A stretch of DNA of 64,000 nt. Origin: a bacterium (GTDB lineage Bacteria; Vulcanimicrobiota; Vulcanimicrobiia; Vulcanimicrobiales; Vulcanimicrobiaceae). A program made the translations under genes and the position numbers. Positions 6,100 to 29,106 of the stretch are shown here, one piece after another (position 1 is the stretch's first letter; the number at the start of each line of letters is the position of its first letter). The stretch spans positions 186,001-250,000 of the forward strand of contig JAJYFL010000001.1 in NCBI GenBank assembly GCA_021790935.1. Reading direction: 5' to 3'. The notes beneath the pieces are model-generated. The model saw only the letters and a program-made list of their open reading frames with translations. It ran no database searches and had not been told where the DNA came from.

Positions 6100-6113
6100 C
6101 GTTCGCTCTCCCG

Positions 6114-8156
6114 CTAGCCCGCGGGGGAGTCCTCCTTGACGGGATTGTCGGTATAATCCAAATAGACGAGACCGAGAAAGATCTCGAGCGCCTCCGCGTT
6201 CATCTTGCGGTCGTTGGCGATCTCGACGATCGACCGGTTCGAAGCGAGGGCGTCCTTGACGATCTCGTCGGGCGTCGTCTTGGTATCGGCCGCAACGATG
6301 GTCGCTGCGGCGGCCTGCCCCGGCGTCAGATCGTCGCGCAGCATCTCGTTATAACTGACGCCGCTTCCGATGCCGTCGCTCGCGAAGCGCACGGCCAGCG
6401 CCTTTTGCAGGGTGGCGTACCGTTCGCGCGACGTCCCTACGCCGAGCAGCGTGATTCGCGCCTCGAGTTGCCGCGCGCGGGCCATGTTGTAGAGCTGGTC
6501 GGCTTGCGAGGCGGATACTGCAGCGCGGGCCAGCGAGTCGTCGGCCTTCTGCATGAGCGGTACGAGTGCGTTGTAATCGAACTGGCCGATGTCGCCGAAG
6601 TAATCCAGGCGCACGTTCTGCAGCTGCATCAAGAAATCGTTGACCGTTCCAAGCGATTGGTCGAGTTGCATGGCCGCCGCGCGCGCGGCGTCCGCGGCCT
6701 GCACCATCTCACCGTCGGCCGAGGATATCTCTGCGAACATGCGCGAGTACGAGGGAAAGATCGCGACCGAATCCGATGGAATCGGCGTCAGCTGGAACGG
6801 AGCCGACATCTCGTCGAGGATCTCGCCGTTATCGGCCAGCAACCCGGTCGGTTTGCCGGTCTTCGGGTCGACGGAACCGACGCCGCCGATCGTCGCCTTC
6901 GCATCGTCGAGCGCGCTGTTGATCGAGCGCGACATGCTCGTCAGATTCTTTTCGATCGATTCCAAGCGCGAGCCGGGCTTGATTTGAATGTTGCTGAAAT
7001 CGGGAATCTCGTACGAGATATCTTCGAGGCGCGCCTTGATCTCTTTGATCTGGTCGCGGCCCTCGTCGTGGCGCGCTCCGATCTCGGCGACGGCCTCTTT
7101 CTGCAGTTGCCGCGCCTGATCCAACTTGGCGCGCAGGCCGGCGAGATTCGGCTGCGTGAGGTTCACGCTTTGAACCTCCATCCGGCGCAGCTCGGCGAGC
7201 TCCACCTGTGCGGCAGCCTGGGCTTGCGGCGTTCCGGTCTGCGCGACCTCGCCGAGCGTCTGCGCGCTCTTTCCGGTTTGCCCCAGAGCGAGTTGCGCTT
7301 GCCCGAGCGCGAGCAGAGCCTGTTCGTTGTTGGGCTGCGTCTTCACGAACTGCGTGAGCTCGAGCATCGCGGTATTGTAACGCGCGTTGCGCAGGTCGTG
7401 TAGGGCCCAGACCAGCCGTTCTTGCGGGGTAACCTTGGTCGGATCGAGCTCGGGATATCCGAGCAGATGTCCGACGCGCGCCTGCGGATCCGGATGGTTC
7501 TCGAGATACTTCGTGATGAGGTCGGAGTGCTCGCCTTGCAGCACGCCCAGGTGCTTCATCATCGTGACCATGGCGTTCGGATCGTATCCGGCTCGCGACA
7601 TCAGCAAGAGACCGTACTGGTCGGCCTGCAGTTCGTCAACCCGCGACATCTTCGCGAGGATCCCGGCCTCCGCGAGGTTGCCGAAATCGTAGATCAACGG
7701 CGAGAAGAGCGACGCGATGCCGAAAAGGAGGTTGAGCACCTCGGATTTGGCTTGCATGGTCACGACGTGGCGGCGTTCGATGTGGCCGGTCTCGTGGCCG
7801 AGCACGCCCGCCAGTTCGTCGTCGGAGTGCACGAAATCGAGCAGACCGTCGTTCACGTAGACGTATCCGCCGAGCGTCGAAAACGCGTTGATGTCGGTCG
7901 CCCGGATGATCTTGACGTTGTACGGCACGTCTTTGCGCGCGACTTGGTGCCAGAGGCGGTCGGCGACCGTTTGGACCCACTGGTTGAGGAGCGGGTCGTT
8001 TTCGATGACGCTGGAGGCGGTGATCTGCTGATCGATTGCTTCGCCTTCTTGAACCTCCTGGGCAGTCGTAACGGCGCGCGCGGGAGCCGGAATGAAGACC
8101 GGCAGCAAAGCGAGGATCAGCGCTAGACCTACGATGCGGCGAAACATACGATTCAT
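6114..8156 (-). CDS. M48 family metalloprotease with long helical C-terminus
   Basis: This is a 680-aa secreted or periplasmic zinc protease. A signal peptide (LALILALLPVFIPAPARA) ends near residue 28. The M48 catalytic motif HETGH is at 121-125 and the third zinc ligand Glu175 lies in DELQADQYG. TPR-like helices around 240-300 resemble BepA/YfgC. The C-terminal 350 residues are mostly alpha-helical and unfamiliar, making the protein longer than the usual 450-490 aa BepA. The ATG at 8156 has a clear AAAGGAC ribosome binding site upstream. An earlier in-frame ATG at 8198 is not supported. A likely role is outer-membrane protein quality control, by family analogy. Confidence 0.9.
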   Translation of the reverse strand: MNRMFRRIVGLALILALLPVFIPAPARAVTTAQEVQEGEAIDQQITASSVIENDPLLNQWVQTVADRLWHQVARKDVPYNVKIIRATDINAFSTLGGYVYVNDGLLDFVHSDDELAGVLGHETGHIERRHVVTMQAKSEVLNLLFGIASLFSPLIYDFGNLAEAGILAKMSRVDELQADQYGLLLMSRAGYDPNAMVTMMKHLGVLQGEHSDLITKYLENHPDPQARVGHLLGYPELDPTKVTPQERLVWALHDLRNARYNTAMLELTQFVKTQPNNEQALLALGQAQLALGQTGKSAQTLGEVAQTGTPQAQAAAQVELAELRRMEVQSVNLTQPNLAGLRAKLDQARQLQKEAVAEIGARHDEGRDQIKEIKARLEDISYEIPDFSNIQIKPGSRLESIEKNLTSMSRSINSALDDAKATIGGVGSVDPKTGKPTGLLADNGEILDEMSAPFQLTPIPSDSVAIFPSYSRMFAEISSADGEMVQAADAARAAAMQLDQSLGTVNDFLMQLQNVRLDYFGDIGQFDYNALVPLMQKADDSLARAAVSASQADQLYNMARARQLEARITLLGVGTSRERYATLQKALAVRFASDGIGSGVSYNEMLRDDLTPGQAAAATIVAADTKTTPDEIVKDALASNRSIVEIANDRKMNAEALEIFLGLVYLDYTDNPVKEDSPAG

Positions 8157-8327
8157 GTCCTTTACCTGCCGGAACGGGCCGATGTTACAGGTACGCACTC
8201 CCCGGCCGTGGGCCCGAGCTCCTGCGCCGGCGCGGCCGGCGAGCGAACGGTGGATAAACCGGATAACCTGTGGAGCGCTTGTGGATGTTGCAGGGTGGCG
8301 GAGACGCTGTTCGAACCGGTGGCCAGC

Positions 8328-15567: not shown

Positions 15568-16197
15568 GTGCGCCTGGCCGTGTTCGTCGACTACGACGGT
15601 ACGATCACCGACGGCGATACCCTCGATATCCTCATGCGCTCGTGCGCCGGCGAAGACGCGTGGCAACGGTTGGAGCGCGAACTCGCCGCAGGAACGATGT
15701 CCCTGCGCGAAGTGCTCTCCGCTCAGGCACGTAACGTACGCTGCGCCTTCGACGAGGCCGACGCTTTGCTTGCGGCGCAGACGCACTTCGATCCGGCATT
15801 CGGCGAGTTCGTCCGCGCCTGCGAGGCGGCCGCGGTGCCCCTTCGGATCTTGAGCTCGGGAATCGCTTCGCTGATCGAGCACGCGCTTGCGCGCCAGGGC
15901 ATGGCGGGGGTACCCGTACTGGCGAACGACGCGGACCCAAGCCCCGACGGCTGGGTCATGCGATACCGCGACGATTCGGATAACGGTCACGACAAGGCGC
16001 TCGAGGTTCGCGCCGCGAGCGGCTCGGGCTACCGAACGGTCTACGTCGGCGACGGTTACTCCGATTACGAAGCCTCGCTGGCGGCGGATATCCGTTTTGC
16101 CAAGCGCGGCCGTTCGTTGGAACGCTTTCTACGCGAGCGCGGCGCGACGTTCGTGTCGTTCGACAGCTTTGCCGAGGTTCGCCGAGCGCTGTTTTAG
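15568..16197 (+). CDS. HAD-superfamily phosphatase (phosphoserine phosphatase/MtnX-like)
   Basis: This 209-aa HAD-IB-type hydrolase has the nucleophile motif DYDGT (Asp8 and Asp10) at the N-terminus. Motif II is ILSSGI near residue 94, a Lys lies in HDKALEV, and motif III/IV is GDGYSDYEAS near 170. It resembles MtnX and SerB-like phosphatases, but the substrate cannot be assigned. It starts with GTG at 15568, 44 bp after rne, and may be co-transcribed with it. Its stop overlaps the stop of the convergent S41 protease gene. Confidence 0.85.
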   Translation: MRLAVFVDYDGTITDGDTLDILMRSCAGEDAWQRLERELAAGTMSLREVLSAQARNVRCAFDEADALLAAQTHFDPAFGEFVRACEAAAVPLRILSSGIASLIEHALARQGMAGVPVLANDADPSPDGWVMRYRDDSDNGHDKALEVRAASGSGYRTVYVGDGYSDYEASLAADIRFAKRGRSLERFLRERGATFVSFDSFAEVRRALF

Positions 16198-17540
16198 CGC
16201 ATGTGTGCGAGCTCGTCGTTTAGGAATGCTATGGCGCGCGCTAGCTGCACGTCGTGGTTGGGATCGCCGTAGCGCGGGTGCTTGTTCTCCTTGATGACGA
16301 TCGCGGGGCGAATGCCGATATGGTTGATGTTCCTGTTGTCCGGCGTCAGATAGCGTGCGGTCGTAATTTTGACGGCCGATCCGTCCGGCATTGGGAAGAT
16401 CGTCTGCACGACGCCCTTTCCAAACGTTTTGGTTCCGACGATCGTACCGACCCCGCTGTCTGCAATCGCGCCCGACGTAATCTCGGCGGCCGATGCCGTA
16501 TGCCCGTTTACCAGGACCGCGAGCGGAATTGGAGCGATGGCGGTATCGTCGGCTTCGATCGTCGTTATGTTTGCTGCGCGCGTCTCTACCGAAACGATCG
16601 GCCCGGTGGCGATGAACTTGGAACTTACGGCAACCGCAGCGTTCAGGTAACCGCCGCCGTTGTCGCGCAGATCGAGCACCAGCGCGCGCGCTCCCTCCCG
16701 CGCAAGGCGATCCAGCGCCGTGGTCAGCTCGCTGCCCGTATCTTGCCCGAAAACCGTGAGCGCGACGTAACCGATCTTGCCCGGCAGCATCTTCTGAAAG
16801 ACGCTGAGCGCGGCGATTTCCGCGCGCGTAACGACGATAGGAGAGGGAAGCCGTTTGCCATCGCGCACGATGGTGAGCCGGACTTTCGTTCCGGCTTTGC
16901 CGCGCAGGTGCAGGCTGGCCTGCGCGAGGGTCATGCTCTTGGTAGGGTGCCCGTCGATAGCGGCGATCGTATCGCCTTGCCGGACTCCGGCCAGATCGGC
17001 GGGGCCGTGCGGAACGATGTTGCTCACCTCGATGTACTTCGTGCGCAGGCTCTTTTGGATGACGATGCCGGTTCCCGAAAAGGAACCACCGTTCAGGCCC
17101 TGGTTGAGTGCGGCGTACTCCTTTGGCGTCAGAAAGACAGTCCAGCGATCGTGGACGGAGGAGAGCATGCCGGCTATCGCCGCGTAGGCGAGAAGATGCG
17201 GGCTGATCCTGCGCCCCGCAGAGCGCGACGCGAGTTGGACTTCGCGCTCGACCGCGTGGATATCGTAGGCGGCGTTCGCGCTCGCACGAAGCGGCGGTAA
17301 AGCCGCGGCCTTCACGCCGCTCTTTGCGAGCACGTGGAGCAGCTCGCTGCGCGCGCCGTCAAGAATGCTCTGCGGATGCGTGGGTTTGTAAAACTCTGCC
17401 GTCAACTTCGTGTAGCTCAGCCGTATCTCGGAGGCGTCGGCCTGCGAGAGGCCGGTGCCGGCTGCGAGCGTAGCCGACGGAAGTTGCGCGAGCCCGGCGA
17501 GCAGCGCGCCCGTCAGCAGCAACGACGAAAAACGATGCAT
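16194..17540 (-). CDS. S41 family C-terminal processing protease (second CTP)
   Basis: This 448-aa secreted serine protease has a signal peptide (residues 1-27, LATLAA-type cleavage). An N-terminal helical region is followed by a PDZ domain around 150-235 and the S41 catalytic core. The Ser/Lys dyad is Ser350 (NGHTASAAEI) and Lys375 (GTKTFGKG). LRDNGGG at 291-297 is the oxyanion or structural motif. The ATG at 17540 has an excellent GGAGAGGT ribosome binding site. It starts 7 bp after the stop of a paralogous protease gene. CTPs process envelope proteins, including murein hydrolases, so it likely works with the adjacent LytM and FtsEX proteins. Confidence 0.93.
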   Translation of the reverse strand: MHRFSSLLLTGALLAGLAQLPSATLAAGTGLSQADASEIRLSYTKLTAEFYKPTHPQSILDGARSELLHVLAKSGVKAAALPPLRASANAAYDIHAVEREVQLASRSAGRRISPHLLAYAAIAGMLSSVHDRWTVFLTPKEYAALNQGLNGGSFSGTGIVIQKSLRTKYIEVSNIVPHGPADLAGVRQGDTIAAIDGHPTKSMTLAQASLHLRGKAGTKVRLTIVRDGKRLPSPIVVTRAEIAALSVFQKMLPGKIGYVALTVFGQDTGSELTTALDRLAREGARALVLDLRDNGGGYLNAAVAVSSKFIATGPIVSVETRAANITTIEADDTAIAPIPLAVLVNGHTASAAEITSGAIADSGVGTIVGTKTFGKGVVQTIFPMPDGSAVKITTARYLTPDNRNINHIGIRPAIVIKENKHPRYGDPNHDVQLARAIAFLNDELAHMR

Positions 17541-17547
17541 ACCTCTC

Positions 17548-18951
17548 CTAACGAGCGATCCGGCGCAAACGTGCCACGGCTGCCGCGAGTTGTTTGTCGT
17601 GTCGCGTGCCGATAAGCGCCGGATCGGGGTTCTGTTTGACGACGATGTCCGGTTCGATGCCGACGTGCTCGATGTCACGGCCCAACGGCGTCACGTAGCG
17701 AGCGGTCGTGATCTTGAGGGCGGACGAGTTGGGCATCGGATAGATGCTTTGAACTACGCCTTTCCCAAAGGTTCGCGTCCCGATCAGCGTGCCGATCTTG
17801 TAATCCTGAATGGCTCCCGAGGTGATCTCGGAGGAACTGGCGGTGTAACCGTTGACCAAAACGACGAGCGGGCTCAAGCCGGGTATCGCGTCGCCGAGGG
17901 CTTCCTGCTCGTCTTTTTCTCCGAGCCGGTTGATGGTTGAAACGATCGTCCCGTGCGGGATGAAAAGACTCGATATTTGGACGGCAGCGTCCAATAGTCC
18001 GCCACCGTTGTCGCGCAGGTCGAGAATGTAGCCCTTGGCGCCGCGTGCCTTCCCCTCGAGCAGCGCCCTGCGGACTTCGGCGGCCGAGGTCGTGCCGAAA
18101 TCGGAGAGCCGCACGTACTCGAAACCGTCATCCATCTTCGCGTGCACCGTCGGTACGTGAATGATGTCGCGGACGATACGATACGCGCGCAACTTCGTAG
18201 CGCGGTAGGGGTGCGTGGTAATCGTCACGACCGACCCTTTCGGCCCGCGGATCAGACGCTCGACGCGATTTAAGGAGAGGCCGCTCACCGGGGTGGCATC
18301 GACGCGCACGATCACCGCGCCCGGTTTTATGCCCGCTTTCGACGCAGGCGACCCGGCGATGGGTTGCAGCACGATCTCGCCGCCCTTCAACTGGTAGATG
18401 TAGACCCCGATGCCGCCGAAATCACCGCCTCGAAGCGATTCGTTGAGGCTGCGAATCTCGCGCGGCGAAAGATATACCGTATACGGATCGCCGAGCGAGT
18501 CCATCAAGCCGCGCAACGCCGCATGCGTGATACGGGCATCGCCCCGGGTGCCGAGCCTCGTGCCGTAATGCGCCTGCGCGTAGCTGAGCTCGCGGCCGAT
18601 CGCGTGCAGGTCGGAGACCGTATCCGGTCCTGCGGCGATGGCGGGAAGCACGGCCCCGGAGACGCGCTCGTGCTTCAGCAACGCAAGGATGCCGGCGCGC
18701 TCGCCACCCATTAGCGTCTGTGCCTTCACCGGCTTGTAATACGCCCGCTCGACCTCGCGGAAAGCGAGCTCCACCAAGCGCTGATCGGTTATGCCCGGAT
18801 CGAATAGCTGCGGCAGGGCGAAGCGCGGCAGGGCGCTCTCGCCCGCGGTTGCGTGCGCCACGCCGAAGCCGCTTCGGTAGCCGCCGTACAGGGCGCCGCC
18901 GACGGCGACGACGATCAGTGCGATGAGGAGCGCACGAAGTTTCGTGGACAC
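17548..18951 (-). CDS. S41 family C-terminal processing protease (first CTP)
   Basis: This is a 467-aa CtpA-like protease with an N-terminal membrane anchor (ALLIALIVVAVGGALYGG). A PDZ domain spans about 170-250. The catalytic Ser372 lies in NGYTASSSEI and Lys397 in GTRTFGKG; LRDNGGG is also present. Compared with the downstream paralogue it keeps a membrane anchor rather than a cleavable signal. The two genes may have arisen by duplication. It lies 71 bp downstream of the LytM peptidase gene, in the same direction, in a cluster that includes ftsEX. Confidence 0.93.
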   Translation of the reverse strand: MSTKLRALLIALIVVAVGGALYGGYRSGFGVAHATAGESALPRFALPQLFDPGITDQRLVELAFREVERAYYKPVKAQTLMGGERAGILALLKHERVSGAVLPAIAAGPDTVSDLHAIGRELSYAQAHYGTRLGTRGDARITHAALRGLMDSLGDPYTVYLSPREIRSLNESLRGGDFGGIGVYIYQLKGGEIVLQPIAGSPASKAGIKPGAVIVRVDATPVSGLSLNRVERLIRGPKGSVVTITTHPYRATKLRAYRIVRDIIHVPTVHAKMDDGFEYVRLSDFGTTSAAEVRRALLEGKARGAKGYILDLRDNGGGLLDAAVQISSLFIPHGTIVSTINRLGEKDEQEALGDAIPGLSPLVVLVNGYTASSSEITSGAIQDYKIGTLIGTRTFGKGVVQSIYPMPNSSALKITTARYVTPLGRDIEHVGIEPDIVVKQNPDPALIGTRHDKQLAAAVARLRRIAR

Positions 18952-19022
18952 GAGTGCGAGTAATCCTTCCTCGTGATAATGCTGCTACCCGGTTCTACCC
19001 GAGATCGCTTGCGGGGGTTCCA

Positions 19023-20222
19023 TCAGTGCAGGTAGGGGGTCGGGTCTACGGGCTTTCCGTGGATGCGTACCTCGAAGTGGAGATGCGGCCCGGTCGAGTA
19101 CCCGGTCGAGCCGACCGCGCCGATCGCTTGCCCCTGCTGCACGCGTTGACCGTCGGCGACGAAAATCTGCGAGAGGTGCGCGTAACCTGTCGCGAGCGCA
19201 CCGCCGTTATCGATCAGAATGTAATTCCCGTAGCCGCCGAACCACCCGGCCGAGATGACGGTCCCCGCGGCCGCCGCCACGACGGTGGTGCCCATCGGCG
19301 CCCCGATGTCGAGGCCCTGGTGGAACTCGGGTGCCCCGCCGAACGGATTTTTGCGCCAGCCGAACGGCGACGTGATGATCCCGGAGACCGGCCAGATGAG
19401 CTTTCCCGGCGCACCGGTGGGCGGCGGCGGGCTTCCGGCGATGCCTGCGGCACGTCTAGCGGCTTGCTGCTGGGCCGCGACCTCTCGCTCGCGCTCCACG
19501 ATCAGCCGTTCCAACTCTGCCTCTTCGCTCGCCGAGAGGGCTTCCATCTGCGCGACTTGCCCAGCGACGTGCCGGCGCTGGGCATCGGCGAGAGCGACCA
19601 GGTTGCTCCTCTCGTCGGCGAGCATCGCGAGTTGGTTCTTGGCCTGCCGCCGCGCTTGCGCTTGCTGCTGCAGCGAAAGCCGCGTTGCTTCAAGCCGCGC
19701 TTGCGCTTGGGCCACCCTCGCTTCAGTGGCCTTCCGCGTGCGAATGGCGTTCTCGTTGGCGGCGATCAGAAGGCGCAAATCTTCCCACCGCTCGACGAAG
19801 TCGCTGAACGAGCGCGCGGCGAGCAAGACGTCGATGTAGCCGAGGTTGCCGCGTTCGTAGATGTCTACCAGGCGCTTTTTCAGCAGGTTGTCGTGCAGCG
19901 CCAGCGAGCGTTTTGCCGCATCGAGTTGCAACGTATTCCACGCCAGCCGCCGCAACGTGCCGTTGCGCCGCGCCGCCAAATCGCCCAGCTCGCGGTTCAC
20001 CTGCGCGATCGCAGCATCGGTCGCGTCGAGCTGCGTGCGGAGATTGCCGACCTTTACGGTGGCGGCCCTCAACTGCGATCGCTTTTCGCTCAGGCGGCGA
20101 TGGATCCGGTCGGCTCTCTTGCGCTGCGCACCGATACGATCGTTGATCGACTGGCTGGGAAAAGCGGCGGCCGTCGGCAGGATGCAGAAGACGAGAAACG
20201 CTGCAATGAAGGTGCGGATCAT
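19023..20222 (-). CDS. M23/LytM murein endopeptidase with coiled-coil (EnvC/PcsB-like)
   Basis: This 399-aa protein has a signal peptide (1-20) and a long coiled-coil region (about 25-255) typical of FtsX-interacting EnvC and PcsB. A Pro-rich linker leads to a LytM domain from about 273. The zinc ligands are intact: His301 and Asp305 in HQGLD, and His380/His382 in HLHFE. Escherichia coli EnvC lacks these, so this one may be a real endopeptidase. Its ATG overlaps the upstream response regulator gene by 4 bp. FtsEX conformational changes likely control its activity, by analogy. Confidence 0.93.
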   Translation of the reverse strand: MIRTFIAAFLVFCILPTAAAFPSQSINDRIGAQRKRADRIHRRLSEKRSQLRAATVKVGNLRTQLDATDAAIAQVNRELGDLAARRNGTLRRLAWNTLQLDAAKRSLALHDNLLKKRLVDIYERGNLGYIDVLLAARSFSDFVERWEDLRLLIAANENAIRTRKATEARVAQAQARLEATRLSLQQQAQARRQAKNQLAMLADERSNLVALADAQRRHVAGQVAQMEALSASEEAELERLIVEREREVAAQQQAARRAAGIAGSPPPPTGAPGKLIWPVSGIITSPFGWRKNPFGGAPEFHQGLDIGAPMGTTVVAAAAGTVISAGWFGGYGNYILIDNGGALATGYAHLSQIFVADGQRVQQGQAIGAVGSTGYSTGPHLHFEVRIHGKPVDPTPYLH

Positions 20223-21169
20223 CGGCGGCGCTTGTCCTTCACATACGACGAGCCGGATATCGACTTCGCATACCGTTTCAGTTCGGCGGCGGCCTCGCCG
20301 ATCTCTGCGTAGCTCTCGAAATCCCGCTGCTCGTTCGTCACGATCGCTATCGAGAGCGACATGATTGGGAAGCGGTTGAGCGTGCCGCGGCGGTCGCGGG
20401 TTTCGATGAAGCCCTGCTGCAAATCGAGCGGCGTATAGAGCCGGCGAACGTCCCTGTCGAAATCGGCGATGATCTCCCGAGCGATCTCCTCGGCCCGGTC
20501 GCAGCCGGTGACGACCACAAAGTCGTCGCCTCCGATGTGCCCGACGAAATCGTTCGCCGTTCCGCGCCGGCGGACGACATCGACGGTGACCGACGCCAGC
20601 AATTGTATGGCTTCGTCGCCGTGCGTGAATCCGTACACGTCGTTGAACGCCTTGAAATTGTCCAAATCTTCGTAGAGAACGGCGAATCGCTCGGCGCTCG
20701 CGACGCGGCGGCGGAGAACCGCCTCGATCGAAAGATTACCCGGAAGTTTCGTAAGCGGGGAGAGCGACGAATCGGCCTCGACGCGGCGGATCTTGGTGCG
20801 CACGCGCGCCAGCAGCTCCTGCGGACCGAACGGTTTCGTCATGTAGTCGTCGGCGCCGGCGTCGAATCCCGCGATCTTGTCCTCGACCTCGGATCTCGCG
20901 GTCAGCATGATGATCGGGACTCGAGCGTTGCCCGCGTGCGCGCGGATTCTGCGAGCGGTCTCGTAGCCGTCCAACTCAGGCATCATGACGTCCAAAACGA
21001 TGAGATCCGGCTGCAGGTCGTCGAGCTTTTCGAGCGCCTCTTGACCGTTAGCGGCCGAGACGACCTGATACCCAGCGAGCTCGAGATTGGTTGCGATGAT
21101 CTTGCGGAGGTTGCGGTCGTCGTCGACCACCAGGATGAGGCGGCCTTGCGTATCGTCGGCGTAGTTCAT
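20219..21169 (-). CDS. Response regulator with receiver and degenerate GGDEF domain (PleD-like)
   Basis: This 316-aa protein has an N-terminal receiver with acidic pocket Asp16-18, phospho-acceptor Asp60 (VLDVMMPELDG), Thr90 and Lys112. It has a C-terminal GGDEF domain with the N-terminal metal site YEDLDNFKAFND intact. The signature reads GGDDF (213-217) inside FVGHIGGDDF, and no RxxD inhibitory site is visible. GHIGGDDF-type sequences are common in degenerate GGDEF domains, so diguanylate cyclase activity is doubtful. It may instead bind GTP or c-di-GMP. The ATG overlaps the histidine kinase stop (ATGA). An earlier ATG at 21352 lies inside the kinase gene and is rejected. Confidence 0.9.
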   Translation of the reverse strand: MNYADDTQGRLILVVDDDRNLRKIIATNLELAGYQVVSAANGQEALEKLDDLQPDLIVLDVMMPELDGYETARRIRAHAGNARVPIIMLTARSEVEDKIAGFDAGADDYMTKPFGPQELLARVRTKIRRVEADSSLSPLTKLPGNLSIEAVLRRRVASAERFAVLYEDLDNFKAFNDVYGFTHGDEAIQLLASVTVDVVRRRGTANDFVGHIGGDDFVVVTGCDRAEEIAREIIADFDRDVRRLYTPLDLQQGFIETRDRRGTLNRFPIMSLSIAIVTNEQRDFESYAEIGEAAAELKRYAKSISGSSYVKDKRRR

Positions 21170-22248
21170 GGGCGCATCGGAAAGGAAAGCGTTACCGTCG
21201 TGCCGCGGCCGAGCTCGCTGCGTACGTCGATCGATCCCCCGTGCGCGCGCACCAGCGCGTTGACGATGAACAGGCCGAGACCGTTCCCTCCGACGGTCTG
21301 CGTCAACTCGGACTCGACGCGATAAAACCGGTCGAAAACGTAGGGCAGGCAATCTTCGGGAATGCCGACTCCTTCGTCGCGAACGCGCAGCACGGTGCGG
21401 TCGCCGGTTCGTTCGGCCGCGATCGCGATCGTACCGCCGCGCGGCGAGTATTTGATGGCGTTCTCAAGCAGGTTGCGAAAGATGTCCTCCAAACGTTCGG
21501 GATCGCCGGAAATATCGACGCCCGAGGTGTCGCGTACGATCCGGTGCAGCGATGGATCGAAACGAAGCGTGCGGTCGACGCGATCGAGGACGTCGTCGAT
21601 CGGTACGGTGCTGCGCGAACGCAGCAAGTATTCTGCATCCACGCGCGTCACGAGCAGCATGTCGTCGATCAAACGGCCGAGACGGTCGGCCTGCTCTTCC
21701 ACGACCTCGAGAAACTCCGCGCCGCGTTCTTGGTAGAGCGCCGGGTTGCCCCGCAGCGTTGCCGTATAGGCCTTGATCGAGGCCAGAGGCGTTTTCAGTT
21801 CGTGCGACACGGCGCCGACCAATTCGTTCTTGAGCTGTTCGATCTCGGCGATCTTGCGCTGCGGCGTGAACGAGAGCAGCCAGCCTTCGATCTCGCCGGC
21901 GCGCGTGAGCGCCGCTACGCGCCCCAAGACGTCGATGGCCGAACCGCCGCTGTCGAGCAGATTGAAGCGCACGTCGTGGGCATCGCGCCCGGTAGCGGCT
22001 CCCAGCACGCCGGCCGCGTTCGTGCCCTCGACGATCTCTCCGAAATCGCGGCCGACGAGGCTCGTAGCCGAATGGCCGGTCGCCTGCTCCGCCGCCGCGT
22101 TGAAGCGGACGATGCGCCCCGCGCCGTCGAGCTCGATGACCGCGTCGCGTACGACTCCGTTGAGCACTTCGTAGAGCGACTTGAGGACGAGCAGCTCGTC
22201 GAGCAGATCTCGCGTTACGTCCGCAGGAAGCGGCCGACCGATATCCAT
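21166..22248 (-). CDS. Soluble PAS-domain sensor histidine kinase
   Basis: This 360-aa kinase has no obvious membrane helices. A PAS domain (about 25-130, with RDAVIELDGAGRIVRFN) is followed by a HisKA domain with phospho-His149 (AVSHELKTPLASIKAY). The HATPase domain carries an N box (NLLENAIKYSPRGG), G1 DEGVGIPED and G2 GGNGLGLFI. It sits between ftsX (34-bp overlap) and its likely cognate response regulator (4-bp overlap). It is therefore probably translated with the division genes. Its PAS domain suggests it senses an intracellular or redox signal. Confidence 0.93.
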   Translation of the reverse strand: MDIGRPLPADVTRDLLDELLVLKSLYEVLNGVVRDAVIELDGAGRIVRFNAAAEQATGHSATSLVGRDFGEIVEGTNAAGVLGAATGRDAHDVRFNLLDSGGSAIDVLGRVAALTRAGEIEGWLLSFTPQRKIAEIEQLKNELVGAVSHELKTPLASIKAYTATLRGNPALYQERGAEFLEVVEEQADRLGRLIDDMLLVTRVDAEYLLRSRSTVPIDDVLDRVDRTLRFDPSLHRIVRDTSGVDISGDPERLEDIFRNLLENAIKYSPRGGTIAIAAERTGDRTVLRVRDEGVGIPEDCLPYVFDRFYRVESELTQTVGGNGLGLFIVNALVRAHGGSIDVRSELGRGTTVTLSFPMRP

Positions 22249-23096
22249 GATGCAATGAGTCCTACGGCCGCTCCAACGAGCAGCAGTTGCGGGACGAGCG
22301 TGCCAAGGTTAACGCTGACGACGTTCGACGCGACGAACGGCAACGCGGCGACCAGCCGCGGCACGAGAGAGGCGCGGCCGACCTCGAGGAGCGCGACCGC
22401 GAGTGAGGCGCCCAGCAGACCGTCGAGCAGCCCTTCGCAGATAAACGGCATGCGGATATATGCGTTCGTCGCGCCGACCAACTGCATGATCGCAATTTCG
22501 CGTCGCCGTGCGAAAACGGTTAAACGGATCGTATTCGAAATGATGATGCCGGCGACGAGGATGAAGAGTGCGATCACCGCGATGCCGGCGCGCCGCGCGA
22601 CGGCGACGAGCTGCAGCAACTTGCCGACGACGTCCTGCCCGTAATTCACGTATTGTACGCCGGGCATCTTCCGAATCTCCGCGGCCACTGCCGGAACCAG
22701 TTCGGGCGTGCGCACCCGAACGCGGAACATGTTGGGCAACGGGTTCTCGGTGAGGATCGAGGTGTCGATCTCCCCTTTCAATCGCCGCCGCAGTTGCTGC
22801 AGACCCTCCTTTTTGGGGACGTATTGCACCGATAGCACGCGCGGGTCGTGCGCGAGCACGGCGCGGATCGCTTCGGTCCGCGCGGGCGACGTGCCGTCTT
22901 GCAGGTAGGCCGAAATTTCGATCTGGTTGAGAACGTCTGCACCGAAATGCACGAGCACGGCGCGGGCATACAAAAAAGCGCCCAAGAGGACGATGGTGAC
23001 CGTCACCGTGCCGATCGCCGTCGCCTGCATGCCGGCGTTCCGGGTGAAGTTTCGAAGAACTTCACCCAGAAAGAATCTGGCTTTGCCCCAGTCCAA
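22215..23096 (-). CDS. ftsX: Cell division protein FtsX
   Basis: This 293-aa permease-like subunit of the FtsEX complex transmits ATP hydrolysis by FtsE to periplasmic murein hydrolases. The layout is typical: TM1 near 25-45, a periplasmic loop (about 50-165, IEISAYLQDGTSP), then three C-terminal helices including RRREIAIMQLVGATNAYIRMPF. Its start lies 35 bp inside ftsE and its end overlaps the kinase gene by 34 bp. The loop is the expected contact for the LytM coiled-coil protein encoded downstream. Confidence 0.95.
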   Translation of the reverse strand: MDWGKARFFLGEVLRNFTRNAGMQATAIGTVTVTIVLLGAFLYARAVLVHFGADVLNQIEISAYLQDGTSPARTEAIRAVLAHDPRVLSVQYVPKKEGLQQLRRRLKGEIDTSILTENPLPNMFRVRVRTPELVPAVAAEIRKMPGVQYVNYGQDVVGKLLQLVAVARRAGIAVIALFILVAGIIISNTIRLTVFARRREIAIMQLVGATNAYIRMPFICEGLLDGLLGASLAVALLEVGRASLVPRLVAALPFVASNVVSVNLGTLVPQLLLVGAAVGLIASWISVGRFLRT

Positions 23097-23772
23097 GGAA
23101 ATAATACCCTCGCTCTTCGTCGGTTACGATGCGCCCGTTATCGAGCCGCACGACGCGGCGGCGCATACGGTCGACGACCGCTTGGTTGTGCGTCGCAACC
23201 ACTATCGTCGTGCCTTTGAGGTTGATGCGCAACAGGAGTTCCATGATCTCGGTGGTGTTCGAAGGGTCGAGATTCCCACTCGGCTCGTCGCAGAGCAAGA
23301 TCTTCGGATTGTTGACGAGCGCGCGCGCGATGGCGGCGCGCTGCTGTTCGCCCCCGGCGAGCTCGCCCGGATACATGCGGCTCTTGTGCGAGAGCCCTAC
23401 CAGATCGAGTACGCGCGGAACCTGTCGTATGACGTCGCGGGTGTGCGCGCCCGTCACTTGAAGCGCGAAGGCGACGTTCTCCCATACGGTCTTGTCCGTC
23501 AGGAGCTTGAAGTCTTGAAAGACGACGCCGATATGGCGCCGCAAGATGGGTACGCGCGACCGGCGCAAGCACTCGACCCGGATACCGTCGACCGTGATCT
23601 CGCCCGTGGTCGGTGCCATCTCGCGATAGAGGAGGCGCAGCAGCGTGGATTTGCCGGTTCCGGAGTGTCCGACGAGGAAGACGAAGTCGCCCTTGCCGAT
23701 TTCGAGATCGATGCCGTCGAGGGCGCGCACTCCATTTGGATAGACCAGAGAGACGCCGCGTAAGGAGATCAT
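23062..23772 (-). CDS. ftsE: Cell division ATP-binding protein FtsE
   Basis: This 236-aa ABC ATPase has Walker A GHSGTGKST and an ABC signature reading AGGEQQR in place of the more usual SGGEQQR. Walker B is ILLCDEPSGNLDP and the switch His lies in VATHNQ. FVFLVGHSGTGKSTLLRLL and VFQDFKLL are typical of FtsE. The ATG at 23772 is preferred over a long upstream extension because the ABC domain starts at residue 2 and TAAGGAGAT-like spacing is normal. It is the first gene of the division operon and lies divergent from the acyl-CoA dehydrogenase gene, 49 bp away. Confidence 0.95.
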   Translation of the reverse strand: MISLRGVSLVYPNGVRALDGIDLEIGKGDFVFLVGHSGTGKSTLLRLLYREMAPTTGEITVDGIRVECLRRSRVPILRRHIGVVFQDFKLLTDKTVWENVAFALQVTGAHTRDVIRQVPRVLDLVGLSHKSRMYPGELAGGEQQRAAIARALVNNPKILLCDEPSGNLDPSNTTEIMELLLRINLKGTTIVVATHNQAVVDRMRRRVVRLDNGRIVTDEERGYYFLGLGQSQILSG

Positions 23773-23821: not shown

Positions 23822-24970
23822 GTGAATTTTGACCTAACCGACGAACAGCGGGCGATACAAGCAACCGTCGCGGAGTTCGCGCGAGAACGCGTGGCGCCAC
23901 GCGCGGAGGAGATGGACCGCAACGAGGCGTTCCCCTACGACCTGGTAGCCGAGATGGCCGACCTCGGCTTGATGGGCCTGCCGTTTCCGGAGGAGTACGG
24001 GGGCGCCGGTGCCGACACGGTGAGCTACGCTTTGGCGATCATGGAGCTGGCCCGCGTCGATGCATCGACCGCCATCACGATGGCCGCGCACGTCTCGCTG
24101 GGTGCAAGCCCTTTCTATCTTTTCGGTTCGGAGGAGCAGAAACGGCGGTACCTGGTCCCGCTGGCACAGGGCCGCATGCTTTGGGGTTTCGGCTTAACCG
24201 AGCCCGGCGCCGGGAGCGATGCCGGGAATACGCAGACGAAGGCCGAGCTGCGCGACGGCAAGTGGATCGTCAACGGCACCAAGGCCTTCATCACGAATAG
24301 CGGCACCGAACTCACCGGGGGCACGACGATCACCGCGGCGACCGGCACGCGGAGCGACGGCAAACCGGAGATCACGAACCTCATCGTGCCTCAGGATACC
24401 GTCGGATTCACGCGCAGCAAGAAGTACCGTAAGATGGGCTGGCGCGCTTCCGATACGCGCGAACTGGCGTTCGCCGACGCGGAGATCCCCGCCGAGAACG
24501 TCCTGGGCCGCCGCGGCGACGGGCTAAGAAATTTCTTGACGATCTTGGACGGTGGCCGCATCTCGGTCGCCGCGCTCTCGGTGGGCCTGGCCATGGGGGC
24601 GTACGACGAAGCGTTAAAATATGCCCGCGAGCGCCGCGCGTTCGGTAAGCCGATCGGGAAGTTCCAAGCGATCCAGTTCAAACTCGTCGACATGCTCGTC
24701 GAGATCGAACACGCCAAGCTGATGACGCTCAAAGCCGCATGGGAGAAGGACGGCGGGCGCGATTACGCGCAGACCGCCAGTCTTGCGAAGTTGTACGCCG
24801 CCGAAGTCTCCCGCCGCGTCGTCAACGAGGCGGTGCAGATCCACGGCGGCTACGGGTTCATGGACGAATACCCGGTCTCGCGGATGTATCGCGATCAGAA
24901 GGTCAACGAGATCGGAGAAGGCACGAACGAGATGCAGCGGCTGCTGATCGCCCGCATGATCGGCTTGTAA
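23822..24970 (+). CDS. Acyl-CoA dehydrogenase
   Basis: This 382-aa FAD enzyme introduces an alpha-beta double bond in acyl-CoA and passes electrons to ETF. Motifs seen are LTEPGAGSDAGNTQTKA (FAD/substrate loop), KMGWRASDTRELAF, and a C-terminal VQIHGGYGFMDEYPVSRMYRD. The last is followed by IGEGTNEMQR, whose Glu is at the catalytic base position of short- and medium-chain enzymes. It starts with GTG. No partner ETF or thiolase genes are near, so the acyl chain specificity is unknown. Confidence 0.93.
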   Translation: MNFDLTDEQRAIQATVAEFARERVAPRAEEMDRNEAFPYDLVAEMADLGLMGLPFPEEYGGAGADTVSYALAIMELARVDASTAITMAAHVSLGASPFYLFGSEEQKRRYLVPLAQGRMLWGFGLTEPGAGSDAGNTQTKAELRDGKWIVNGTKAFITNSGTELTGGTTITAATGTRSDGKPEITNLIVPQDTVGFTRSKKYRKMGWRASDTRELAFADAEIPAENVLGRRGDGLRNFLTILDGGRISVAALSVGLAMGAYDEALKYARERRAFGKPIGKFQAIQFKLVDMLVEIEHAKLMTLKAAWEKDGGRDYAQTASLAKLYAAEVSRRVVNEAVQIHGGYGFMDEYPVSRMYRDQKVNEIGEGTNEMQRLLIARMIGL

Positions 24971-24988: not shown

Positions 24989-27781
24989 CTAAAGGTTCCC
25001 CGCCCTCGGATTGCGGGTGGCCGCGACGAACGCCGCGATCTGCGCCCGCGAGTGGAAACCGCGCTTGACGAAGATCGATGTTACATATTTCTCGACGGTC
25101 TTCTGGCTGATGCTCAGCTCCAGCGCGATCGCTGCGTTCGATGCGCCCGACGCGATCAGATCCGCTACCGCGCGTTCGCGCGACGACAATAACGAGGGCG
25201 CCTCCGGCGCTCTGGTGGTTGTTAGCGAAAGCGCGCGCATCCAGCGTTCGTATTCGCCGGTCGCGTGCATCGCACGGAAGCGCGTGTGCGCGTCGTCGAT
25301 CTCCCCTCCGACCAGCATCGCAATGGCTTCGTAGAGGTTCCATCCGATGCGCGCATACGCTTCGCGGGCTAACGAACCGGCATCGCGGGCACTCGTGGCA
25401 TCGCCGCGCTTGCGTGCGGACACTGCGCGCGAGAGCGCGATCGTGCCGCGTGCGGCATCGTGCTGCGCGCCACCGAAGACGCGGTCGGCCGCTTCGGTCA
25501 ATCTCTGCTCGTCGGAAGCGTCGATCAGGCTCGCGGCGATGGGAAGCGCGATAACAGCGGCGTGGGAATCGATCAACCGTGACACCCCGCTCAGCGCGAT
25601 CTCGCGTGCGCGAACGTGATTCCCTCGAGCGGCGGTCAAGACGGCGGCCGTCGCGCTCAAACGCTGCCACTCGTAGGAAGACGCGTCATTCCCTTCCCGC
25701 TCGATTAGCTTCCAGTCGGCGGTCCGCTCCGCGTCCTGGAAGCCGCCGCCGGCGAACGCGACGAGCGGAGCGATAAAGGTTGCGAACACGTGCATGGAAT
25801 CGGCGTGCGACGCGAGACCTTCCTCCAAGTCCTTTCCGGCGTCCCGTATGCGGCCGCACACGTATGCGAGCGTCGAACGAAGAAAGAGCGCGTGAGCCAG
25901 CGCCGTACCGAGTCTCCACCGCCGAGCGATATCTACGGCGTCGTTGACCTCCTCGATGGCGCGCCCAGTCTCACCCAGTCCCAGAGCCATCGTCGAAATG
26001 TTGATGCGCGCCGACGCATCCGTCGATACGCGCACGTTGGCCACAGAGTCGGCGGCGCGCAACCAGCCGTCGACGTCGTTATGCCGGCAGCTCACGACGG
26101 AGCGAACCGTCCAGAGAATGCTGCGAACGTGCGCCGTCAGCGGGAGACGAAGATCGACGGTGTCGATCTTGCGAAGCGCGTCGTCGATCTTGCCGTCGAA
26201 AACGAGGAACTGCGCGTGCACGGTTCGTAGGCGGGCAAGCGCGACCGGACTGAGCCGGTCGCCAAACTCGGCCTCGGCCTCTTCGAGCATACGCGCGATT
26301 CTCGTCCAGCTCGCACCGGCGTTGCTACGCTCGACGGCCAAGAAGGAAACGATGTCCGCTGCGGCTTCTGCGTCTCCCAAGGCGCGATATCGTTCGAGCG
26401 CGGCGGAGTATAGGTCGACCGCACGCGGCGAGTATCCGCGGGCGCGTGCGGCGTGCCCGAGCTTGCCGAATATGCGGGCCCGCGACGCTTCGTCCGCTAC
26501 GGCATCGAGCGCGCGTTCCAGGTGGCGTCTCGCGTCGTCATAGGCCTTCAGTTCGAACGCCGCGTCGCCGGCACGCTCGCTGTATTCACGCACCTTCGCA
26601 TGATCGTTTGCTTCCCACCAATGATAAGCCAATGCTTCAAGATCACGATCCGCTTCTGGAGCGCGTTCGAGCATGATCGCCGCGCGCTCGTGTGTGAGGG
26701 CCGCTTGCGCGGCGAGCATTCCTGCCACGATGGCGTCACGGGTTAGGGCGTGCCGAAAACGCAGCGGCGTCTGCCGGCCGTACTCGTCGACGAGCAAGCC
26801 GGCGTCGCGCGCGGCGTGCAGCGCCGCGACGACGAGATCGAGCGGCTCGTCGATGACCTTGGCGATCAACGAGGGGTTGACGCGCGAGCCGAGGACGGCT
26901 GACTGTTGCACGATGCGTTGCGTTCCGCTCGGGAGCCGGCGCAAGACGTCCTTGACCAGCGCGCGCACCGACGTGGGAACGGCCGGCGCGGCCTGGACGC
27001 CGTGCGCCCGTACGTCGCGTAGCAGCTCTTCGGCGAAGAGCGGATTCCCATCGGCGCGCTTGACGAGCGTCTCGATGGCAGTGGCGCCAAGCCGTTGCGC
27101 GTCGAAGCCGTTCGATAAGAGCAACGCTTGAATCTGTTCGTCGGGAAGGCCGCGGAGACTTAACGCTATCGTCGAAGGTTCGCGCAGCACCCGGCCGAGC
27201 GCGGACGCAGCGTCCTCGCTCAGCGTTTCACCGTCGCGCAGCGTCGCAACGATCAGCACGCGCATCTTCCGCACGCGGGCCGAGAGAAACGCGAGCATTT
27301 CTATGGTAGCGACGTCCGCCCAGTGGATATCTTCGATCGCGATGATCGTCGCTCGCTTCGCCGCGGTTTCCCAGAGCAGGCGCGCGACGGCGGCGAGCAG
27401 CCCCGCTTTTCCAAGACTCTCGTCACGCGCGACCTTGGCGTGTGCCGGCGCGAGGTAGGCGATGGCCTGTGCGGTTACCTCGTCGATGTCTCCAGCTGCG
27501 ACGACGGCTGCCGACGCCAGCCGCGCGACGATATCGCGCCACGGTCCGAGCGTGCGCGGCGCGTACTGCAGACATTCCGTCCGCGCAACGAGGCGAGGTC
27601 GCCCTTGCGGGATGCTGTCGAGAAAGCGCTGTAGCAGACAAGATTTACCGACGCCTGCCTCACCCCGAATGAGAACCACGGAACCCGAGGCGCGCGCGAG
27701 CAAACGCCGGCGCTCTGCGAGTGCCTCGAGCTCGGCTTGCCGCCCGACGAATACACGACTCGTCCGCGCACGCTCGATCAT
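24989..27781 (-). CDS. LuxR-family transcriptional regulator with large AAA ATPase (LAL type)
   Basis: This 930-aa protein has an N-terminal AAA ATPase with Walker A GEAGVGKS (40-47) and Walker B IIAIEDIHWAD. TPR-like helices fill the middle, and a C-terminal LuxR/GerE HTH spans about 865-915 (LSSRERAVADLIASGASNAAIALELSISQKTVEKYV). LAL regulators respond to unidentified ligands and activate promoters. It is divergent from the first propeller lipoprotein, with 146 bp between them. That gap contains a conserved element repeated upstream of the second propeller gene. Regulation of those lipoproteins is a plausible inference. Confidence 0.92.
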   Translation of the reverse strand: MIERARTSRVFVGRQAELEALAERRRLLARASGSVVLIRGEAGVGKSCLLQRFLDSIPQGRPRLVARTECLQYAPRTLGPWRDIVARLASAAVVAAGDIDEVTAQAIAYLAPAHAKVARDESLGKAGLLAAVARLLWETAAKRATIIAIEDIHWADVATIEMLAFLSARVRKMRVLIVATLRDGETLSEDAASALGRVLREPSTIALSLRGLPDEQIQALLLSNGFDAQRLGATAIETLVKRADGNPLFAEELLRDVRAHGVQAAPAVPTSVRALVKDVLRRLPSGTQRIVQQSAVLGSRVNPSLIAKVIDEPLDLVVAALHAARDAGLLVDEYGRQTPLRFRHALTRDAIVAGMLAAQAALTHERAAIMLERAPEADRDLEALAYHWWEANDHAKVREYSERAGDAAFELKAYDDARRHLERALDAVADEASRARIFGKLGHAARARGYSPRAVDLYSAALERYRALGDAEAAADIVSFLAVERSNAGASWTRIARMLEEAEAEFGDRLSPVALARLRTVHAQFLVFDGKIDDALRKIDTVDLRLPLTAHVRSILWTVRSVVSCRHNDVDGWLRAADSVANVRVSTDASARINISTMALGLGETGRAIEEVNDAVDIARRWRLGTALAHALFLRSTLAYVCGRIRDAGKDLEEGLASHADSMHVFATFIAPLVAFAGGGFQDAERTADWKLIEREGNDASSYEWQRLSATAAVLTAARGNHVRAREIALSGVSRLIDSHAAVIALPIAASLIDASDEQRLTEAADRVFGGAQHDAARGTIALSRAVSARKRGDATSARDAGSLAREAYARIGWNLYEAIAMLVGGEIDDAHTRFRAMHATGEYERWMRALSLTTTRAPEAPSLLSSRERAVADLIASGASNAAIALELSISQKTVEKYVTSIFVKRGFHSRAQIAAFVAATRNPRAGNL

Positions 27782-27927: not shown

Positions 27928-29106
27928 ATGATCGGTACGCACTTTCGAAAGATTTGCCTAGTTATGGCCGTGTTCGCCGTTGCGACCGCCAGTTGCAGCG
28001 GCCCGGGCGGAAACGCCGGTGTCGTTCCGCAGCGCTCGCCATCGCCATCGCCATCGCCAACGCCAACACCAACGCCTCCGCCGACCGGCCCGTTCGCGTA
28101 CGTTTCCAATCATGGCTCCGCCAACGTCTCCGCCTATACCATCAGCGCGACGACCGGCGCGCTCACGGCGGTGGCGGGTTCGCCCTTCGCGGCGGGCACC
28201 AATCCCTGGGGCTTGGCGGTCGATCCCAGCGGCAAGTTCGCGTACGTTGCCAATAATGGCGACAACAACATCTCCGCCTACACCATCAGCGCGGCGACCG
28301 GCGCGCTCACGGCGGTGGCGGGTTCGCCGTTCGCGGCGGGCACCGGTCCGCGTGGAGTGGAGGTCGATCCCACCGGCAAGTTCGCGTACGTTGCCAATAA
28401 TGGCTCCGCCGGCGTCTCTGCCTACACCATCAGCGCGGCGACCGGTGCGCTCACGGCGGTGGCGGGTTCGCCCTTCGCGGCGGGCGTCAATCCCGTTGCA
28501 GTGGCGTTCGATCCCGCCGGCGCGTTCGCGTACGTTACCAATCTAAGCGATGGCACCGTTTCCGCCTACACCATCAACGCGGCGACCGGTGCGCTCACGC
28601 CGGTAGCGGGGTCGCCCTTTGCGGCGGGCACCCTTCCCTCTGGAGTGGCGGTCGATCCCACCGGCAAGTTCGCGTACGTTACCAATGAGGGCGACAACAA
28701 CGTCTCCGCCTACACCATCAACGCGACGACCGGCGCGCTCACGCCGGCGGCGGGTTCGCCCTTCGCGGCTGGCACCAGTCCCATACGAGTGGTGGTCGAT
28801 CCCACCGGCAAGTTCGCGTACGTTACCAATAATGGCTCCGCCAGCGTCTCCGCCTACACCATCAACGCGACGACCGGCGCGCTCACGGCGGTGGCGGGTT
28901 CGCCCTTCGCGGCGGGCACCAATCCCTGGGGCGTGGCGGTCGATCCCACCGGCACGTTCGCGTACGTTGCCAATAATGGCTCCGCCAACGTTTCCGCCTA
29001 CACCATCAACGCGACGACCGGTGCGCTCACGCCGGTGGCGGGTTCGCCCTTTGCGGCGGGCACCAATCCCATCGGAGTAGTGGTCGCGAAAAAGTTTGGC
29101 GGTTAG
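27928..29106 (+). CDS. Seven-bladed beta-propeller lipoprotein (YVTN/lactonase-like repeats), copy 1
   Basis: This 392-aa exported protein has a lipobox-like cysteine (VATASCSG) near residue 23, then a Pro-rich linker (PSPSPSPTPTPTPPP). Seven tandem 48-residue blades follow, starting FAYV at 28093. Each blade carries FAYVxNxGxxxVSAYT, ATTGALTxVAGSPFAAGT and a closing xVAVDPxGK. It resembles YVTN or lactonase-type propellers, which bind ligands or act as scaffolds on the cell surface. No enzymatic residues are obvious. The near-identity of blades at DNA level suggests recent expansion or gene conversion. The blades are 144 bp exactly. Confidence 0.9.
   Translation: MIGTHFRKICLVMAVFAVATASCSGPGGNAGVVPQRSPSPSPSPTPTPTPPPTGPFAYVSNHGSANVSAYTISATTGALTAVAGSPFAAGTNPWGLAVDPSGKFAYVANNGDNNISAYTISAATGALTAVAGSPFAAGTGPRGVEVDPTGKFAYVANNGSAGVSAYTISAATGALTAVAGSPFAAGVNPVAVAFDPAGAFAYVTNLSDGTVSAYTINAATGALTPVAGSPFAAGTLPSGVAVDPTGKFAYVTNEGDNNVSAYTINATTGALTPAAGSPFAAGTSPIRVVVDPTGKFAYVTNNGSASVSAYTINATTGALTAVAGSPFAAGTNPWGVAVDPTGTFAYVANNGSANVSAYTINATTGALTPVAGSPFAAGTNPIGVVVAKKFGG
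28093..29100 (+). repeat. Tandem 144-bp coding repeats (7 units), copy 1
   Basis: Seven in-frame units of 144 bp begin at 28093, 28237, 28381, 28525, 28669, 28813 and 28957. Each encodes a 48-residue propeller blade. Most third positions are conserved too, which points to recent duplication or gene conversion rather than only protein-level selection. The repeats also create long spurious ORFs in other frames. Confidence 0.9.

Follow-up and report, generated by a model that had tools for sequence, protein, structure and literature searches.

A kinase-regulator pair with a non-canonical GGDEF output domain as an accessory, order-specific part of an ftsEX-LytM operon

At cell division, FtsEX connects the cytoplasm with peptidoglycan hydrolases. 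What tells FtsEX when to act is, to our knowledge, an open question. The locus described here resembles the known FtsEX-hydrolase systems, those of PcsB, CwlO, RipC, and EnvC, in its FtsE, in the extracellular domain of its FtsX, and in a gene for a coiled-coil hydrolase in the same row. It lies in a 64,000-nucleotide (nt) stretch of DNA (hereafter the window; contig JAJYFL010000001.1 of assembly GCA_021790935.1, positions 186,001 to 250,000) from a 2.65-Mb, 98.8% complete genome of the Vulcanimicrobiaceae, order Vulcanimicrobiales. Seven genes follow one another there on the minus strand: ftsE, ftsX, a histidine kinase gene (HK), a receiver-GGDDF response regulator gene (RRG), a LytM-type peptidase gene (LytM), and two genes for C-terminal processing proteases (CTP1 and CTP2). 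Their place and strand, proposed earlier from the letters of the sequence (the original prediction), were borne out by our coordinates and by Pfam and NCBIfam scans, as were the claimed overlaps of 35, 34, 4, and 4 nt at ftsE/ftsX, ftsX/HK, HK/RRG, and RRG/LytM. The distances further down are 71 nt (LytM-CTP1) and 7 nt (CTP1-CTP2). The locus is real, conserved, and phylogenetically well bounded, and from it we infer a function. We give about an even chance to the proposal that HK and RRG are a two-component switch that is accessory, specific to this order, and non-canonical in its GGDEF output, and that would tune how FtsEX drives LytM.

The locus departs from the described FtsEX-hydrolase systems in that two CTP genes follow the hydrolase gene and that, in this order, a kinase-regulator pair stands inside the row. 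WalK of the WalRK system is membrane-bound, and WalR binds DNA. WalRK, likewise a two-component system, responds to the state of an FtsEX-dependent hydrolase pathway, by the account given in PMC7299342; here, in contrast, the kinase is predicted to be soluble, the regulator output is of GGDEF type, and both genes lie within the ftsEX row. LytM factors such as EnvC link FtsX to amidases, as outlined in PMC10336132, whereas the LytM of the window keeps its zinc ligands. In Pseudomonas aeruginosa, CtpA-LbcA is described as a CTP protease system that degrades LytM-family hydrolases (PMC6050968); here two tandem CTPs share a gene row with the hydrolase, and its degradation by them is putative. For influence of cyclic di-GMP on a MepM-type endopeptidase there is a precedent in Erwinia, as reported in PMC7705223. 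RRG itself is like WspR, DgcR, and PleD in joining a receiver to a GGDEF-fold domain but differs in its GGDDF motif, in extra residues before the motif, in a different C-terminal third, and in having neither an RxxD site nor the usual GRN-type end. With GSU1937 it shares GGDDF in place of GGDEF, although GSU1937 is characterized in PMC8835794 as a Hypr-type cGAMP synthase, which has a transmembrane N-terminus and carries a diagnostic Ser. Among open-license PubMed Central papers, we found no ftsEX operon described as containing a kinase or GGDEF gene and no treatment of cell division in this phylum; the GGDDF subfamily is little described in the open-license literature searched.

The distribution of the pair was read from the neighbors of ftsX across the phylum. 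FtsX_ECD was present in 88 of 98 genomes, the window's own included. The survey took 87 loci from the other genomes, 86 of them with readable genes; a weak FtsX match on a 4.8-kb contig with no recognizable gene (G024) was dropped before counting. In the window's own family (f1), 19 loci carried HK and RRG, 11 RRG only, 21 neither, and 5 were unclear. In a family of the same order (f2), the pair was present in 4/4 loci, and in a family of the same class but another order (f3), it was missing in 13/13. The other families of the phylum contributed 13 ftsX loci, 12 without the pair and 1 unclear. Loci were called unclear where the contig ended, FtsX was unrecognized, or LytM was missing from its place: in two of the five from f1 (G015 and G027), RRG was present with LytM on a separate contig, in another (G035), CTP1 came directly after ftsX, and two (G039 and G060) yielded no reading. 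Outside the order, the pair was absent in 25/25 loci where both ftsX and LytM could be read. Thus ftsE-ftsX-LytM is a core common to the phylum, and HK with RRG is an addition within one order; because the pair is missing from about half of that order and from all 25 readable outside loci, it is accessory and lies outside the core of the machine. Downstream of LytM, CTP genes are present in 47/47 f1 loci whose contig extends far enough and in 11/11 f3 loci but in only 6/12 LytM-bearing loci of the other families. The original prediction, which saw the whole row as one signal-controlled module, stands in that the row with its pair is kept over many genera with tight overlaps and is qualified in that the pair is accessory. 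Absence of the insertion from relatives, which it had named as evidence against itself, holds for about half of the order and for every readable outside locus and does not hold for 52/103 genomes of the order. One further arrangement is instructive: in G036, a LytM homologue lies on another contig (G036:C9:14356-15513), and HK-RRG stands between ftsX and CTP1 (L146), a single case hinting that it is ftsX, and not LytM, to which the pair is tied.

Where the pair is present, its genes are tightly packed. For each junction, the script picked whichever start codon lay closest to the preceding stop, a choice that favors short distances, and LytM/CTP1 was treated identically. In the relatives' loci, HK and RRG overlap in 23/23 (by 4 nt in 21 and 1 nt in 2), RRG and LytM in 28/30, and ftsX and HK in 18/23, compared with 2/64 for LytM and CTP1. 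The overlaps at ftsX/HK, HK/RRG, and RRG/LytM are therefore kept more than chance would have it. Where HK has been lost, ftsX and RRG overlap by 4 nt in 9/11 loci. A start codon stands at the 35-nt ftsE/ftsX position in 34/34 RRG-bearing loci, 16/21 pair-free f1 loci, and 0/13 f3 loci. The last residues of FtsE looked strictly conserved only together with RRG, a pattern that we rejected as a sign of co-evolution: the stretch doubles as the start of ftsX in the 35-nt overlap, and the difference arises because some lineages lost that overlap.

With a full-length RRG profile (E 1e-60), RRG was found in 52/103 genomes of the order, in 23/39 genera, and in 28/58 of the better genomes. These 52 loci (the window, 34 from the first survey, 5 on split contigs, and 12 later additions) are one to a genome, the copy of G001 being two contig-end pieces; all adjoin ftsX/HK and/or LytM, and no RRG turned up away from this locus in any of the 52 bearing genomes. 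In the 98-genome search, the best matches in RRG-less genomes of the order were GGDDF-domain matches only, at 1e-12 to 1e-17, versus 1e-64 or below in bearers. HK is present in 31 of the 52, missing in 20, and unread in one (G027), and is thus missing in 20/51 readable genomes; HK without RRG was seen at no locus read. Among the 20, 11 have RRG directly after ftsX, and the other 9 have 878-953 nt from the ftsX stop to the RRG stop. The absence is real because that distance is too short for HK and because no HK orthologue was found elsewhere in the genomes tested, namely 11/11 RRG-only and 4/4 pair-free ones (best matches 3e-33 to 6e-40 at 30-38% identity; three positive controls gave 5e-92 to 6e-135). 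Relocation of HK in RRG-only genomes was rejected for the 11/11 tested. On an operon tree of six locus proteins from 74 genomes, built by a quick method and with some weak forks, the order is one clade; RRG takes nine changes, which we interpret as a single gain followed by eight losses, and HK a minimum of seven, which are seven losses if it was gained once. The ftsX-linked RRGs form a single clade (37 rows, SH-aLRT 100) on a quick RRG tree, in which long branches lie outside the linked clade, some joined directly, and one of nine loci from other phyla (Elusimicrobia) is missing, having given no sequence. Separate origins of RRG in several lineages of the locus are accordingly disfavored. The pair would have been gained once in the order and then lost repeatedly.

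Such losses raise the possibility that the pair is a neutral passenger, a single insertion now on its way out; eight RRG and seven HK losses, if each was gained once, would fit this, as would the fact that HK is conserved less than any other operon gene in the comparison. Selection speaks otherwise. Only within-genus dN/dS was used because dS exceeds 1 between genera; for one genome pair it was 0.045 for FtsE, 0.133 for FtsX, 0.114 for HK, 0.086 for RRG, 0.115 for LytM, 0.165 for CTP1, and 0.113 for CTP2. These values, 0.09-0.11 for HK and RRG and like those of LytM and FtsX, show both to be under purifying selection. In identity to two other genera, RRG (76-77%) is second only to FtsE (90% in one of them), followed by FtsX (68%), LytM (64-65%), and, lowest, HK (53-56%). 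With the overlaps also kept, a neutral passenger is very improbable. Loss of HK is accompanied by a change in RRG: mean identity to f2 in RRG-only versus HK+RRG genomes is 0.558/0.651 for the receiver and 0.526/0.617 for the GGDDF half and hardly shifts for FtsX (0.512/0.502), FtsE (0.781/0.791), or a flanking acyl-CoA dehydrogenase (ACD; 0.728/0.719). Because RRG is less conserved where HK is gone, there is a moderate case for regarding the two as cognate, with RRG decaying once its kinase is lost.

HK has its phospho-acceptor His in 24/24 rows and keeps its N and G boxes, and in the RRG receiver the phospho-acceptor Asp (D60) and Lys (K112) are invariant in 32 rows, so that both proteins carry the conserved residues of a two-component system. 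HK is indicated by hydropathy to be soluble, with no transmembrane segment: its highest 19-residue Kyte-Doolittle mean is 1.10-1.66 over the 24 rows, versus 2.65 for FtsX. In the GGDEF-fold half that follows the receiver of RRG, DxD, FKA, ND, GD, GGDD, KxxxK, and GS are invariant in 22 rows, and the first five also in a 32-row alignment. The motif reads GGDDF in 31/33 readable rows and GGDDL in 2, outside the canonical GG[DE]EF pattern. RRG residues were mapped onto what we take to be the corresponding positions of PleD, and RRG has Asp at the position that is presumably equivalent to the diagnostic Ser of GSU1937. The comparison with the other GGDEF proteins of the genome covered 6 of 12. An AlphaFold2 model of RRG (mean pLDDT 87.3, pTM 0.63) has WspR, DgcR, and PleD as its best Foldseek matches; the full-length TM is ~0.4, which probably reflects a different orientation of the domains. 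Against the GGDEF chains of the Protein Data Bank (PDB), matches of the GGDDF profile extended no further than position 121 of 185, leaving the C-terminal third uncovered.

Because the RxxD site and GRN-type end are missing, cyclase activity of RRG is doubtful, and the GGDDF domain could be enzymatically dead, with RRG serving as a phosphorylation-dependent protein partner of FtsE or FtsX instead of acting by way of a cyclic dinucleotide. This is a version of the switch proposed above, and the chances of the two overlap; strong conservation in spite of those absences and of the unmatched C-terminal third would suit it. The invariant DxD, FKA, ND, GD, and GGDD speak for a working site, however, and, by analogy, the GGDDF motif is no proof of inactivity because GSU1937 of Geobacter sulfurreducens is reported in PMC8835794 to be active with it. 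In the same source, PA3258 failed to raise cyclic di-GMP, and for Bordetella DdpB, activity was not established in the account of PMC12805831. On balance, we consider this reading rather unlikely.

The catalytic motifs of the machine into which the pair is set are intact. FtsE, which scores 278.5 bits against a cut-off of 264.85 in NCBIfam (TIGR02673, scanned from 23766), conserves Walker A, signature, and Walker B and adjoins an FtsX whose extracellular domain (PF18075) is above cut-off. The zinc ligands of LytM (HxxxD and HxH) are intact in 77/78 rows, the remaining row being a gap; because they are intact in all 77 readable rows, LytM is probably itself a peptidase and not an EnvC-type activator, and an EnvC-like LytM with a degenerate active site was rejected on the same ground. 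Its CC_PcsB coil and the adjacency of the genes are the grounds for a putative partnership with FtsX. The two CTPs have the PDZ and S41 domains with the Ser-Lys pair, Ser and Lys of CTP1 in 66/68 rows and, in CTP2, Ser in 65/67 and Lys in 66/67, the rest being gaps. CTP2 could have a longer GTG start at 17678, from which its TIGR00225 scan was run. LytM and CTP1 are separated by 1.3 and 1.7 kb containing additional open frames in two relatives (L120 of G009 and L130 of G019, respectively), and in L118 (G007), CTP1 is followed by two CTP2-like frames.

Table 1. Genes of the ftsEX-LytM locus and its flank (window positions)
Feature	Position	Strand	Remarks
ftsE, ATPase of FtsEX	23062..23772	-	236 aa; start ATG 23772, stop 23062; NCBIfam TIGR02673
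ftsX, permease-like division protein	22215..23096	-	293 aa; TTG start 23096; FtsX_ECD and FtsX (Pfam), NF038347 above cut-off
HK, PAS histidine kinase	21166..22248	-	360 aa; PAS-HisKA-HATPase
RRG, receiver-GGDDF response regulator	20219..21169	-	316 aa; Response_reg and GGDEF (Pfam), motif reads GGDDF
LytM/PcsB-like peptidase with coiled coil	19023..20222	-	399 aa; CC_PcsB and Peptidase_M23
CTP1, S41 C-terminal processing protease with PDZ	17548..18951	-	TIGR00225 above cut-off
CTP2, second S41 C-terminal processing protease with PDZ	16194..17540	-	ATG 17540; TIGR00225 above cut-off
ACD, acyl-CoA dehydrogenase, flanking	23822..24970	+	Pfam; divergent from ftsE, 49 nt between

The flanking ACD marks the locus in the class, standing upstream on the opposite strand in those f1, f2, and f3 loci whose contig reaches that far, with the exception of G010; none was seen at the ftsX loci of the other families. 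An Rfam scan of the window found no RNA element at the gathering threshold, and a pattern scan for promoters and terminators found nothing above shuffled background (1 versus 1.3 and 3 versus 7.4, respectively). Beyond the ACD gene lie a 930-residue protein (24989-27781, minus strand) with an ATPase-like start and, by eye, a LuxR-type end and a protein (27928-29106, plus strand) whose many near-identical repeats look by eye like those of a beta-propeller.

HK-RRG might also be a general second-messenger or nucleotide-sensing pathway housed in a growth-linked operon, with targets elsewhere (PilZ proteins, for example) and no effect on FtsEX or LytM. Matches in the genome number 13 for GGDEF, 7 for EAL, and 6 for PilZ, which makes a cyclic di-GMP network likely. 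The nearest named relatives of RRG among the matches listed, at 77% and 68% identity, belong to Candidatus Eremiobacterota metagenome-assembled genomes (MAGs), a name that falls within Vulcanimicrobiota in the taxonomy consulted. In other phyla, the RRG homologues are free-standing: ftsX was beside them in 0/9 loci inspected (L034-L042), and the neighbors in the four loci scanned were pfkB, a TPR protein gene, rsmA, rpe, a lumazine-binding protein gene, and ribD. In two Acidimicrobiia MAGs (L036 and L040), the receiver-GGDDF gene belongs to a row of riboflavin genes (rpe with one for a lumazine-binding protein; ribD). Elsewhere in the phylum, a receiver-GGDDF homologue follows a dCache hybrid kinase gene in G086, adjoins a DnaB/primase-like gene in G093, and has neighbors without Pfam match in G089. 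In two of these five genomes, however, from two other families, it lies between a SPOR-domain gene, of wall or septum type, and ribF (L233 of G092, 5599-8196; L234 of G079, 5690-8203). A pathway with targets elsewhere also sits poorly with a regulator that, in the bearing genomes of the order, occurs nowhere but in this row and keeps its overlaps there. We regard this alternative as possible but somewhat doubtful.

For the switch itself, we envisage the following sequence. FtsE would hydrolyze ATP, and FtsX would pass the movement through the membrane to the coiled-coil LytM, which would cut peptidoglycan and which the two CTPs probably limit. Into this machine, between ftsX and LytM, the soluble PAS kinase and its cognate receiver-GGDDF regulator would have entered in the ancestor of the order. 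HK would read a cytoplasmic signal and phosphorylate RRG; RRG, through its GGDDF domain, would make or bind a guanine nucleotide or cyclic dinucleotide and thereby tune how strongly FtsEX drives LytM. Phosphotransfer, nucleotide chemistry, contact with FtsEX, and an effect on cell separation are thus what the gene row would predict, as are binding of LytM by FtsX, protease action on LytM, and co-transcription of the genes.

Several observations weigh against this proposal. Adjacency of the genes may mean co-expression alone, and beyond the order, RRG homologues lie away from ftsX. The pair is dispensable, with 51/103 genomes of the order (some of them incomplete) and 30/58 of the better ones having no full RRG match. 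The cyclase residues noted above are missing. Loss of the pair is accompanied by no change in the residues of FtsE, FtsX, or LytM that clearly goes beyond what is seen in the flanking ACD: once G023 and the largest clade without the pair had been set aside, the conserved columns that differ in three or more of six loss lineages were T18 and S113 of FtsX and also two in ACD, and we do not count as a signal that FtsX exceeds the others in the share of columns changed in one or more loss lineages (16/76, versus 9-17% in the others). The case for a cognate pair is only moderate because about four HK losses underlie the RRG-only set, and part of the shift in RRG may be general because identity to f2 also drops by 0.02-0.04 in RRG-only genomes for LytM (0.489/0.530), CTP1 (0.473/0.491), and CTP2 (0.514/0.538). 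The lack of clear co-change with FtsEX equally suits the general pathway. The strongest form of the proposal, in which HK-RRG would directly gate the FtsE/FtsX engine and thus active LytM, and the separation of daughter cells would be timed by a second messenger or a signal in the cytoplasm, we hold to be unlikely.

Natural lineages with both, one, or neither of HK and RRG make it possible to ask directly if FtsEX is gated by two-component or cyclic-dinucleotide signals, and G036, with its LytM homologue on a separate contig, is a natural test for what HK-RRG is tied to.

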